This document shows, in pieces, positions 8,857 through 46,763 of a stretch of DNA of 64,000 nucleotides. Every line of letters starts with the position of its first letter. Position 1 is the stretch's first letter. The stretch covers positions 1,799,001 through 1,863,000 of the forward strand of contig CP126120.1 in the NCBI GenBank assembly GCA_030123585.1, given 5' to 3'. The stretch comes from Rhodanobacteraceae bacterium (lineage in GTDB: Bacteria > Pseudomonadota > Gammaproteobacteria > Xanthomonadales > Rhodanobacteraceae). A program made the translations under genes and the position numbers. Under the pieces are notes generated by a model. It ran no database searches and had not been told where the DNA came from. It was given only the letters and a program-made list of their open reading frames with translations.

Positions 8857-9582
8857 ATGCCAGCCACCCGCCCTTCCGGCCGCGCGCCCGACCAGTTGCG
8901 CGCCGTCACCATCGAACGCGGTTTCACCCGGCATGCGGAAGGATCGGTGCTGATTTCCTGCGGCGACACCCGCGTGCTGTGCACCGCCAGCGTCGAGGAA
9001 CGCGTGCCGCCGTGGCTGCGCGGCAAGGGCGAAGGCTGGGTCACCGCCGAGTACGGCATGCTGCCGCGCGCCACCAGCGAACGCACCCAGCGCGAAGCCG
9101 CGCGCGGCGGCCAGGGCGGCCGCACCATGGAAATCCAGCGCCTGATCGGACGCTCGTTGCGCGCGTGCGTGGACCGCGCGGCACTGGGTGAGCGCGTGAT
9201 CACGCTGGACTGCGACGTGCTGCAGGCCGACGGCGGCACCCGCACCGCGGCGATCACCGGCGCGTACGTCGCGCTGGTCGATGCCGTGAACGGCCTGCTG
9301 AAGCGCGGCGCGCTGAAAGCCAACCCGATCCACGGCGCGGTGGCAGCGGTGTCGGTGGGCATCCATCAGGGTACGCCGGTGCTCGATCTCGATTACGCGG
9401 AAGATTCGAACTGCGACACCGACATGAACGTGGTGATGAACGACGGCGGCGGTTTCATCGAACTGCAGGGCACCGCCGAGGGCCACGCGTTCCGCCGCGA
9501 GGAACTGGATGCGCTGCTGGCGCTGGCGCAGAAAGGCATCGGCGAGTTGATCGACGCGCAGCGCGCGGCACTGAAGTCGTGA
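8857..9582 (+). CDS. rph: Ribonuclease PH (tRNA 3'-end maturation)
   Basis: Phosphorolytic 3'-5' exoribonuclease that trims tRNA precursors. The 241-aa product from the ATG at 8857 has [47 protein letters not shown] and the conserved [11 protein letters not shown] phosphate/metal region. Length is normal. A TAAACT element at 8823-8828 could be its -10 box. Its stop overlaps the GTG start of rdgB (GTGA). Confidence 0.97.
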
Positions 9583-10199
9583 AAATCGTGCTGGCCAGCA
9601 GCAACGCCGGCAAGCTGGCGGAGTTGCACGACTTGTTGGCCGACACCGGCATCGAGCTTGTCTCCAAGCGCGACTTCGACATCCCCGATCCCGACGAAAC
9701 CGGCACCACCTTCGTCGAGAACGCCATCATCAAGGCGCGCCACGCGGCCGCCGCGTCCGGCCTGCCGGCGCTGGCCGACGATTCCGGCATCTGCGTGGAT
9801 GCGCTGGGCGGCGCGCCTGGGCTCGACTCGGCCATCTATGCCGGCATCCACGGCGCGGACGAAGCCAACAACGACAAGCTGCTGTGTGCGCTTGCGGACG
9901 TGCCCGACGAGCAGCGCACCGCGCATTACACCTGCGTGATGGTGCTGCTGCGCAGCGCCGTCGACCCCGATCCGGTCATCGCGACCGGCCGCTGGCCAGG
10001 GCGCATCCTGCACGCGCGACGCGGCAGCAACGGCTTCGGTTACGACCCGCTGTTCCTGCCCGACGACGGCGGCGGCCTGTCTTCGGGCGAACTCGAACCC
10101 GCCGTGAAAAACCGCATCAGCCATCGCGGGCTGGCGCTGGCGGCGCTGCGCCAGATGCTGTTATCCCCCTCTCCCGCTTGCGGGAGAGGGCTGGCGTAA
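9579..10199 (+). CDS. rdgB: RdgB/HAM1 dITP/XTP pyrophosphatase
   Basis: Hydrolyses non-canonical purine triphosphates (dITP, XTP) and so keeps them out of DNA. The GTG at 9579 overlaps the rph stop. Motifs are [10 protein letters not shown] near the N-terminus, [30 protein letters not shown] and [11 protein letters not shown]. The last dozen residues ([11 protein letters not shown]) are not family sequence: they are translated from a CTCTCCCGC palindromic repeat that also supplies the stop codon. The native C-terminus has therefore been replaced or extended. Confidence 0.95.
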
Positions 10200-10206
10200 G
10201 GGGGGA
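10164..10206. repeat. Left copy of inverted repeat bracketing the DUF559 gene
   Basis: 43-nt sequence built around the hairpin CTCTCCCGC/GCGGGAGAG. Its reverse complement matches the copy at 10552-10592 almost completely over the last 30 nt and partly over the first 13. It contains the rdgB stop codon and ends 3 nt before the TTG start of the DUF559 frame. Confidence 0.9.
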
Positions 10207-10209
10207 AGT

Positions 10210-11925
10210 TTGGAAAAGCGCAGGAAAATCGCGAATGCGCGTTTATTGCGGCGCCAGGAAACCGACGCAGAGCGTCGCTTGTGGCGATTTCTGCGCAATC
10301 GTCAACTCAGCGGCTACCGTTTTCGTCGCCAAGTTCCATTGGGGCGATTCATCGCCGATTTCGTCTGCATGGATGCGAAGGTCATCGTGGAGCTCGATGG
10401 CGGCCAGCACGCCGACCGTATCGCTGGCGACACGGCGCGCACGCAATACCTGGAGCGCGGCGGGTTTCGCGTGCTGCGCTTCTGGAACGACGATGCACGG
10501 CTTCGCACCGAAGTCGTACTCGAGCAAATCCTGCAGGCGTTGCGCGACGTCTCCCCTCACCCCAACCCTCTCCCGCAAGCGGGAGAGGGGGAAGAGCAAA
10601 CGCGGCGGCTGTACCCGAAGGAAGAGAGGTGCGCGCCCCGAGTCCCGAGTCCCGAGAAACTCGCCGCTCCTGCGGCTCGCCCAAGAGCTGCCATCCATGG
10701 CCAAGAGCTCCGTGACCATCGACTACGCCGATGTTCGCTCCGGCGTCCTGCCTTCGCAGTCCGAGTCCCGCTTTCTCTTTACATCCACATCCCCTGGTGC
10801 GTGAAGAAGTGCCCGTACTGCGATTTCAATTCGCACGGGCTGCGCGCGGCGATGCCGGAGCGCGAATACGTGGCCGCGCTGCTGGCGGACCTCGATGGTG
10901 ACTCGGCCGACTTCGGCGATGCCGTTCGGGACCGCGAAATCATCAGCGTGTTCTTCGGCGGCGGCACGCCCAGCCTGTTCGCACCGGATTCGATCGCGGC
11001 GATTCTCGATGGTGCGTGCCAACGCATTCCGTTCGCGCACGACTGCGAGATCACGCTGGAAACCAATCCGGGCACGGTCGAGCACGGGTGCTTCGACGGT
11101 TATCTTGCGGCCGGGGTCAACCGCATCAGTTTCGGCGTGCAGAGCTTCGACGACGAAAAATTGCGGGTGTTGGGGCGCATCCATTCATCGGCCGAAGCCG
11201 AAGCCGCGATCAAGCTGGCGCAGGATGCCGGCTACACCAACGTCAACCTGGACCTGATGTACGCGCTGCCCAACCAGACCCTCGACGGCGCGCTCGCCGA
11301 CGTCGAACGCGCGATCGCATTGCAGCCTGCGCACCTCTCGCACTACCAGTTGACGCTGGAACCCGGCACGCCGTTCGCGAAGACGCCGCCGCCGTTGCCC
11401 GACCACGATGCCGCCTGGGACATGCAGGAAGCCTGTCAGGCGCGCCTGGCCGAAGCCGGCTACGCGCAATACGAGGTTTCCGCGTACGCCCAACCGGGAA
11501 GGCGTTGCCGCCACAACCTCAATTACTGGGAGTTCGGCGATTACCTCGGGATCGGCGCGGGCGCGCACGGGAAGGTCACGGACCCATCGCACGCAATCCG
11601 CCGCTGCTGGAAAACCCGTTCGCCGGTCGCCTACCTGCAAAGCGCAGGAACGCCGCAACGCATCGGCGGCGATGAAACCGTCGCCGCGGAGCAACTGCCG
11701 TTCGAATTCGTGTTGAACGCGCTGCGCCTGAACGACGGCGTCACGATGGACGCTTTCACCGCACGCACCGGATTGCCGGTCGAGGCCATCACGGCGCCCT
11801 TGCGCGACGCTCGCCGCAACGGCTGGCTGACCGGAGATCCAGCCCGCCTGCAACCCACCGCGCTCGGCCGGCGCTTCCTCAACGACCTGATCGAGCTGTT
11901 CCTGCCGGAACCCGCGCATGCCTGA
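10210..11925 (+). CDS. hemW: DUF559 endonuclease-like domain fused in frame to HemW radical-SAM heme chaperone
   Basis: One open frame of 571 codons covers two normally separate proteins. Residues 1-114 are a DUF559 (Vsr/restriction-endonuclease-fold) domain with DAERRLWRFLRNRQL, FRRQVPLGRFIADFVC (D50), VELDGGQH (E61, D63) and RVLRFWNDD. Residues 115-187 are repeat-derived linker. From about 188 the sequence is HemW: LSLYIHIPWC with C197-x3-C201-x2-C204 for the 4Fe-4S cluster, FFGGGTPSLF, VNRISFGVQSF and HNLNYWEFGDYLGIGAGAHG. The HemW part is 384 aa, normal for the family. The DUF559 start is a TTG at 10210. No ATG, GTG or TTG lies in frame between the right-hand repeat and the HemW core, so HemW is either made as this fusion or from a non-standard start. 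rdgB-hemW is a conserved pair, so DUF559 is the insertion. Confidence 0.85.
   Translation: MEKRRKIANARLLRRQETDAERRLWRFLRNRQLSGYRFRRQVPLGRFIADFVCMDAKVIVELDGGQHADRIAGDTARTQYLERGGFRVLRFWNDDARLRTEVVLEQILQALRDVSPHPNPLPQAGEGEEQTRRLYPKEERCAPRVPSPEKLAAPAARPRAAIHGQELRDHRLRRCSLRRPAFAVRVPLSLYIHIPWCVKKCPYCDFNSHGLRAAMPEREYVAALLADLDGDSADFGDAVRDREIISVFFGGGTPSLFAPDSIAAILDGACQRIPFAHDCEITLETNPGTVEHGCFDGYLAAGVNRISFGVQSFDDEKLRVLGRIHSSAEAEAAIKLAQDAGYTNVNLDLMYALPNQTLDGALADVERAIALQPAHLSHYQLTLEPGTPFAKTPPPLPDHDAAWDMQEACQARLAEAGYAQYEVSAYAQPGRRCRHNLNYWEFGDYLGIGAGAHGKVTDPSHAIRRCWKTRSPVAYLQSAGTPQRIGGDETVAAEQLPFEFVLNALRLNDGVTMDAFTARTGLPVEAITAPLRDARRNGWLTGDPARLQPTALGRRFLNDLIELFLPEPAHA
10552..10592. repeat. Right copy of inverted repeat bracketing the DUF559 gene
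   Basis: 41-nt sequence around the hairpin CTCTCCCGC/GCGGGAGAG, inverted relative to the copy at 10164-10206. The DUF559 reading frame runs through it without a stop (encoding [11 protein letters not shown]) and on into the hemW linker. Confidence 0.9.
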
Positions 11926-45783: not shown

Positions 45784-46763
45784 GCGGCGCCTCCTTGTTT
45801 GTCGTCGAAGCTCGTCTCCAGCACGCGCCAGCACAGCTCGGCGTAATCCATGCCGGCTGCAGCGGCGGCCTTCGGCACCAGCGAGTGCGAGGTCATGCCG
45901 GGCGCGGTGTTCACTTCCAGCAGCCAGTTGTTGCCGTTGTGGTCGCGCATCACGTCCACGCGGCCCCAGCCCGAGCAGGCCAGCGCATCGAACGCGCGTC
46001 GTGCCAGCGCGCGCAACTCTTTTTCCGCGTCGCCGTCGAGGCCAGGACAGATGTATTGCGTGTCCTCGGCGATGTACTTGGCGTTGTAGTCGTAGTACCC
46101 GCCCTTGGGCACGATCCTGATGCTGGGCAGCACGTCGGATTTCAGGATCGAGACCGTGAACTCGTCGCCGACGATCATCTGCTCCACCAGCATCGGCCCC
46201 GGATAACGCTGCGCCAGTTGCACGGCGGCGTCGAGATCCTTTTCCTCGAAAACGCGCGACACGCCGACGCTGGAACCCTCCCACGCCGGCTTCACGATCA
46301 AGGGCAGCCCGATCGCCCGCATGGCCGCGTGCACGTCGCCGCCGCGCGGCAACGGCACGAACTTCGGCGTCGGCACGCCCAGCGATTGCCACACCCACTT
46401 GCTGCGGATTTTGTCCAGCGACAACGCCGAACCCAGCACGCCGGAACCGGTGTAAGGCACGCCCAGCGATTGCAGCGCGCCTTGCAGTTCGCCGTTCTCG
46501 CCGCCGGCGCCGTGCAGGATGTTGAACACGCGCGCGAAGTGGCCCGCGCGCACCGCGTCCAGCAGCGCGGGAATGCCGTCGATCGCGTGCGCATCCACGC
46601 CGTGGCTCTTGAGCGCCTCCAGCACCCCCTTGCCGGAGTTCAGCGACACCTCGCGCTCGGCCGAACTGCCGCCCATCACCACGGCGACGCGGCCGAAGTC
46701 GCGGGCGTCGGTGATGCGCTTCGCATCTGCGTTCGGGACTCGGGACTCGGGACTCGGATTCAT
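45780..46763 (-). CDS. ddl: D-alanine--D-alanine ligase
   Basis: Makes D-Ala-D-Ala for the peptidoglycan stem. The 327-aa ATP-grasp protein has [56 protein letters not shown], and catalytic [27 protein letters not shown]. The first 10-12 residues ([11 protein letters not shown]) come from a GGGACTC tandem microrepeat and have no counterpart in other Ddl proteins. No alternative ATG or GTG closer to the core is in frame. The start overlaps the murC stop (ATGA). Confidence 0.97.

Follow-up and report, generated by a model that had tools for sequence, protein, structure and literature searches.

A DUF559 gene and hemW share one open reading frame

The window, the whole 64,000-nucleotide stretch of Rhodanobacteraceae DNA analyzed here, belongs to a host assembly (G000) that is a single contig of 3.29 Mb. 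At the junction of rdgB and hemW, a DUF559 gene bounded by inverted repeats lies upstream of hemW, the gene of a radical SAM heme chaperone, and reads into it through a linker. The features of the locus are the following.

9579 to 10199, plus strand: rdgB (Ham1/XTP pyrophosphatase), by Pfam PF01725
10164 to 10209, no strand: left arm of the 46-nt inverted repeat bounding the DUF559 cassette, by repeat search
10197 to 10205, plus strand: Shine-Dalgarno-like TAAGGGGGG for the fusion start, duplex energy -11.7 kcal/mol
10210 to 10212, plus strand: TTG that opens the DUF559-HemW frame, 10 nt past the rdgB stop
10225 to 10542, plus strand: DUF559 (PF04480) Vsr-like nuclease domain, aa 6-111, by Pfam
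10543 to 10767, plus strand: linker of 75 codons, free of in-frame stops, ATG, GTG and TTG, mostly disordered by prediction
10547 to 10592, no strand: right arm of the inverted repeat, read through as peptide, by repeat search
10640 to 10656, plus strand: GAGTCCC microrepeat in the linker, from the sequence
10734 to 10759, plus strand: dispersed repeat TTCGCTNCGGCNTCCTGCCTTCGCAG in the linker, 7 genome copies, control 0
10768 to 11925, plus strand: HemW, with core strand LSLYIH (aa 188-193), CVKKCPYC (C197, C201, C204) and HemN_C
10801 to 10803, plus strand: GTG codon in WCVKKC, an implausible start with no ribosome-binding site (-2.8)

An earlier note, made from the letters of this DNA, had proposed that the frame runs without a stop from the DUF559 TTG into HemW, and this is confirmed: 10210 to 11925 is a single stop-free ORF of 571 aa, DUF559 (PF04480) followed by HemW (TIGR00539). 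Its Pfam domains are DUF559 (aa 6-111), Radical_SAM (191-360) and HemN_C (493-556). Counting in-frame start codons back from Y191 gives TTG at 10210, 10246, 10279 and 10339, ATG at 10369, GTG at 10387 and 10471, and TTG at 10540. The last of these lies inside DUF559, and the next in-frame start codon after it is GTG 10801, the V of WCVKKC. The count agrees with the note that no ATG, GTG or TTG stands in frame between the right repeat and the core; the nearest in-frame start before the core is codon -80, and hemW lacks the start of its own that relatives have some 10 codons or fewer from the core.

Only TTG 10210 among the in-frame starts has a real ribosome-binding site, TAAGGGGGG, and its anti-Shine-Dalgarno duplex energy of -11.7 kcal/mol was equalled by 0 of 2000 random 20-mers from the window. 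All remaining in-frame starts have energies of -5.6 or weaker. TTG 10540 was considered as an independent HemW start and rejected, its ribosome-binding energy of -2.5 being close to the background mean of -2.6. Initiation at GTG 10801 would cost HemW Cys197 and, judging from the structural model, strand 188-193, which bears out the earlier warning that a start at WCVKKC removes the first strand and the first cluster cysteine. The further claim that hemW is open only as a fusion, taken strictly, leaves room for starts internal to DUF559, none of them with a good ribosome-binding site. The last residues of rdgB are encoded by the left palindrome, and the rdgB stop TAA falls within the fusion's ribosome-binding site, an arrangement that would suit termination-reinitiation.

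The cassette ends in palindromes and the linker is built of repeats

The DUF559 gene sits in a 429-bp unit (10164-10592) whose two 46-nt arms form an inverted pair, 89% complementary, resembling the inverted REP pairs of REPINs. With a gene on board, the unit is not a short element without its own gene of the kind represented by Rickettsia palindromic elements (RPE). The left arm holds the palindrome CCCTCTCCCGCTTGCGGGAGAGGG at 10167-10190, the right arm holds one at 10566-10589, and the CCTCACCCCNNCCCTCTCCC part of the right arm has seven copies in the genome. The right repeat and the GAGTCCC microrepeat that had been reported in the linker are both real. The ATGGAT-type hairpin, also reported there, was not recovered: our repeat search found no hairpin with arms of at least 12 nt in the linker, and the region is the dispersed repeat at 10734-10759, with its seven genome copies. 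Another GAGTCCC microrepeat array, like that of the HemW linker, lies at 46732-46755 of the window on the minus strand.

An out-of-frame ATG at 10731 sits at the edge of the dispersed repeat. Were this ATG (or the one at 10698) the true hemW start, split from the core by a frameshift, whether a sequencing error or a real indel, a one-base change would join its frame to the core, and a relative in the same genus (G005) does have a related ATGTTCGCT… sequence in frame with HemW. What follows ATG 10731, however, is the dispersed repeat and no conserved hemW leader, and on this ground the frameshift was rejected. The assembly is a single contig, and in a second genome (G014, below), which carries the same fusion, an ordinary start near the core is independently missing. 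We consider a frameshift very unlikely.

Simulated linkers of the same composition were stop-free in the given frame in 29% of cases and free of both stops and starts in 7%, so that an in-frame open junction would arise by chance with a probability of about 0.1 (29% x 1/3), and the argument rests on the second genome and the parallel cases rather than on this locus alone. The 29% figure would fit an account in which HemW is initiated separately near the core, at a non-canonical codon or through internal entry, and a GC-rich, repeat-rich junction has left the linker open by chance; the palindrome end GGGAGAGGGGGAAG also looks like a ribosome-binding site. Yet no in-frame ATG, GTG or TTG lies downstream of GGGAGAGGGGGAAG, a rare start on a conserved gene would be unusual, and the start-less arrangement recurs upstream of epmA, in frame at 15 of 17 loci. 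Separate initiation is thus improbable in our judgment.

Both domains retain their conserved residues

HemW scores 364 bits against the equivalog TIGR00539 (cut-off 205, NCBIfam). Its CX3CX2C cluster motif has the invariant C197, C201 and C204, and in the model the first barrel strand, 188-193, is complete. The frame is intact over 385 residues, with all cluster cysteines and family-invariant residues kept. The earlier note had called for a look for another hemW copy; there is none in the genome, where the sole other match covers the first 244 residues at 29% identity. Some bacteria can do without HemW, and the missing start could be taken as decay of a gene that is dead or silent in this lineage. 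Against this stand the intact 385-residue frame with its cysteines and invariant residues and a HemW dN/dS of 0.18 relative to G014, and we find a dead gene scarcely credible.

DUF559 matches its Pfam model at 135.2 bits (gathering cut-off 20.6; E 1e-39) and a solved homologue, PDB 3hrl, at 2.9e-29. Residues E21, D50, E61, D63, Q66 and H67, conserved across the 56 rows of a DUF559 alignment, are all intact in the window copy; the fold residues D, E-x-D and H correspond to D50, E61, D63 and H67, near-invariant in these rows. It is not a true Vsr mismatch endonuclease, since TIGR00632 gives just 20.7 bits against a cut-off of 97.85. An anti-phage defense system was rejected as an identity for the locus, all PADLOC matches being insignificant, and a search of a plasmid collection returned only HemW-like or short matches. 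The DUF559 protein VsrA damages DNA in Caulobacter without a cytosine methyltransferase (PMC12907096), which makes a nuclease role for DUF559 plausible, and we infer that the window copy is active.

In an AlphaFold prediction of the fusion, HemW is confident and the DUF559 part has low confidence owing to a shallow alignment in which only two rows cover DUF559; given this, the model was left out of the fold search. Linker residues 133-183 have pLDDT below 50. The prediction is consistent with DUF559 and HemW being two independent domains.

The fusion recurs in a second genome of the genus

In about 78 of 80 hemW loci from GTDB genomes, the hemW start is ordinary and at most 30 codons before the core, and almost all of the 80 show an ATG or GTG some 8-12 codons ahead of YxHxPWC, mostly an ATG near -10. 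In seven genomes of the same genus, the hemW start overlaps or adjoins the rdgB stop and the N-terminal extension varies, the junctions being ATGA (G002), GTGA (G004, G010), TTGA (G005, G006) and TGA|ATG (G011, G012); these starts were chosen by reading the sequences by eye. The arrangement suggests that rdgB and hemW are typically translationally coupled elsewhere in the genus. Three more genomes (G013, G007, G003) have palindromic repeats without DUF559 at the rdgB-hemW junction, with rdgB entering the left repeat, and the window and G014 have DUF559 between such repeats. The junction thus appears to be a place of repeat accumulation, where the repeats, here with a DUF559 cassette, seem to have displaced a former hemW start near the rdgB stop, and HemW presumably tolerates N-terminal additions. 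At the three loci without DUF559 (L004, L006 and L011), the only hemW start candidates are TTG codons, at -36/-30, -7 or -3.

G014, a complete genome, carries an orthologous DUF559-HemW fusion at the same site and in frame, opening with the same TTGGAAAAG start, and its HemW is 84% identical to that of the window. A sequencing error, which the earlier note had named as a possible source of the open linker, is made unlikely by this fusion, and the open linker is probably no artefact. From DUF559 to the core, the window linker measures 78 codons and that of G014 44, some 34 fewer and with different DNA, so the frame has outlasted large changes in length. Between the two genomes, dN/dS is 0.20 for DUF559, 0.18 for HemW and 0.65 for the linker (27 alignable codons), values that place both DUF559 and HemW under purifying selection. 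A 56-row tree groups the two DUF559 copies as sisters (99/80). Their dS is about twice that of HemW (1.11 versus 0.56), which leaves room for gene conversion or for separate arrival of the two copies. The HemW tree of the genus does not settle the branching among the ten closest species, including whether the window and G014 are sisters, and an insertion date is not obtainable from it. In G014, a GTG with a fair ribosome-binding site (-8.5) also lies 25 codons ahead of the core, and in that genome HemW could start there, separately from DUF559.

The linker data bear on whether the fusion, once translated, is then cut in the linker, so that DUF559 and HemW act separately and the linker only provides the ribosome to HemW. 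The predicted disorder of residues 133-183 would suit such cleavage, as would a linker that evolves faster than both domains and differs by tens of codons from that of G014, and there is no sign of functional contact between DUF559 and HemW. Selection on the frame, though, is expected with or without cleavage. We regard cleavage as somewhat unlikely.

A wide-order search listed matches by open-frame length only; of the loci fetched, only those of the window and G014 hold DUF559 and HemW in a single frame. Two candidates for further fusions, L128 and L164, were rejected when reading their sequences revealed no DUF559.

DUF559 is fused to EpmA and other proteins in related genomes

Elsewhere in the Rhodanobacteraceae, DUF559 lies upstream of epmA, which encodes the EF-P lysine aminoacylase (assigned by TIGR00462), and at 15 of 17 such loci the two are fused in frame. 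The 17 come from a set of loci chosen by similarity to one EpmA-linked DUF559. The 15 fusions have 15 different motif-to-motif distances, from 348 to 549 nt and all multiples of 3, which implies many frame-keeping indels; the two unfused loci measure 452 and 517 nt, neither a multiple of 3. At a 1/3 chance per locus and assuming independence, 15 of 17 in frame has a probability of about 4e-6, an arithmetic figure whose true weight is lower than it suggests since the loci are related. As with the HemW of the window, the linker contains no ATG, GTG or TTG in 6 of the 11 DUF559-EpmA fusions checked. One clade (95/95) unites eleven EpmA-fused DUF559s from eight genera.

In-frame DUF559-EpmA loci were seen at L200, L201, L203, L205-L211, L216, L250-L263, L277, L286 and L288-L290. 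One of them, L286 (G108:C3:275811-277118), has three tandem DUF559 genes with 501-bp spacing upstream of epmA, the last alone being fused. The DUF559-EpmA linker is proline-rich (for example, GERPPPLPNPLP). EpmA modifies EF-P, which aids polyproline translation, and it is conceivable, as a speculation, that such a linker could exert feedback on EpmA synthesis.

The palindromes are likewise widespread. Among 56 Rhodanobacteraceae DUF559 loci, 52 have a palindrome with arms of at least 8 nt no more than 180 nt past the end of the domain, and in 46 of the 56 the ORF reads through a repeat-coded SPHPNPLPxAGEG-like peptide, by a motif list written after viewing the sequences. Such read-through of the palindrome means that there is no stop inside the cassette.

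Other proteins in frame with DUF559 are MurL (L212 in G100, NF041275), a NadE-like protein with its own ATG (L299 in G482) and a GDSL hydrolase (L192). Near L046 (G001) there is a NadE-like frame as well. DUF559 occurs inside an MmeI-type gene between the target-recognition and C-terminal domains (L214), inside an HsdS gene past a specificity domain (L215) and inside a type ISP gene (L054). In these restriction-modification genes, the cassettes are in frame and near domain boundaries.

The genome that holds the window also offers an example of the repeats, outside the window at about 1929900 (L282/L291). There valS contains a related inverted repeat pair in frame, which lengthens the protein by roughly 40 residues past RFVLMN and ahead of the anticodon-binding part (…RFVLMN-TTNSLPLLAGEGARRADGGNTREPPPHPNPLPQTGEGVK-TEAERW…), and its repeat has the same coding frame (PPHPNPLPQTGEG) as that of the cassette. 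ValS matches its equivalog at 1237 bits. Dispersed palindromic repeats thus lie in frame in two conserved genes of this genome, the hemW linker and valS, and the intact valS frame implies that this organism translates such repeats within an essential gene.

Proposed capture of the hemW start by a DUF559 cassette

Together, these observations argue that a DUF559 cassette captured the start of hemW and that HemW is made as one 571-residue DUF559-HemW protein from TTG 10210, a reading to which we give a probability of roughly three in four. We hypothesize that a DUF559 gene flanked by a pair of inverted palindromic repeats inserted at the rdgB-hemW junction in an ancestor of the host species and G014 and took over the hemW start. 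A cassette with no stop of its own would, when inserted in the right frame, fuse through its right-hand palindrome to whatever is downstream. Ribosomes ending rdgB at TAA 10197 would initiate at TTG 10210 from the overlapping TAAGGGGGG, giving a product of DUF559, a flexible proline/arginine-rich repeat-coded linker and complete HemW. The length of the linker could then drift freely while its frame would be kept, because HemW is under purifying selection and has no other start. HemW would apparently be producible only as a tail on a nuclease. From these sequences we infer translation of the fusion, a HemW that functions with its extension and mobility of the cassette. Against the reading, beside the GTG of G014 and the higher dS of DUF559 given above, TTG is a weak start, and the HemW fusion occurs in two genomes only. 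The earlier note had left a choice between a nuclease-like N-domain and a rare start; the N-domain is clearly better supported, by the ribosome-binding site of TTG 10210, the G014 fusion and the start-less DUF559-EpmA parallels.

The window fusion belongs to a wider pattern that is apparently unreported. We tentatively speculate, as a possibility short of even odds, that palindrome-bounded DUF559 cassettes are mobile, insert in frame within conserved genes or just before them, take over their starts and so addict the host. If this is true, a cassette would be hard to lose, since a housekeeping enzyme (HemW, EpmA, MurL) could not be made without the nuclease frame.

Parts of this arrangement have precedents. 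RPEs are protein-coding palindromes (Ogata et al. 2000; reviewed in PMC2229807) of 105-146 bp (PMC2229807). Like them, the repeats described here are dispersed palindromes that lie in frame in or beside conserved genes and would be tolerated as extra peptide; unlike them, they flank a whole nuclease gene that would give the downstream gene its start codon, ribosome-binding site and N-domain. What is known is thus the protein-coding repeat, and what appears new is such a repeat carrying a nuclease gene that gives a host gene its start. The inverted pairs of short GC-rich palindromes between genes also recall REPs and REPINs (PMC3116915, PMC3733652), and REPs within ORFs are known, including in Xanthomonas recB (PMC3733652); REPINs, however, are tied to RAYT transposases, whereas here DUF559 lies between the repeats, and the window repeat has few copies (7). 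The domain match and conserved acidic residues place the nuclease part with DUF559/Vsr-like endonucleases (Caulobacter VsrA, PMC12907096; 3hrl), the members of which are single-domain in the papers found, unlike the fusion to HemW described here. The literature searched, which includes few subscription papers, does not describe a fusion of DUF559 to HemW or EpmA.

Vsr-related homing endonucleases occur in fractured genes. By analogy, a small Vsr-fold nuclease would here too be tied to insertion into conserved genes; the differences are that no intein or intron is present and that the fusion would stay in the protein. A selfish-looking nuclease gene could in this way join core metabolism without inteins or introns, through read-through of its end repeat and capture of the next gene's start. 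This would suggest, in a form open to testing, how DUF559 genes persist and how N-terminal fusions between unrelated functions originate. If the fusions are translated, HemW here and EpmA in many relatives bear a nuclease domain, and standard gene calling may trim such fusions or mislabel them as two genes.
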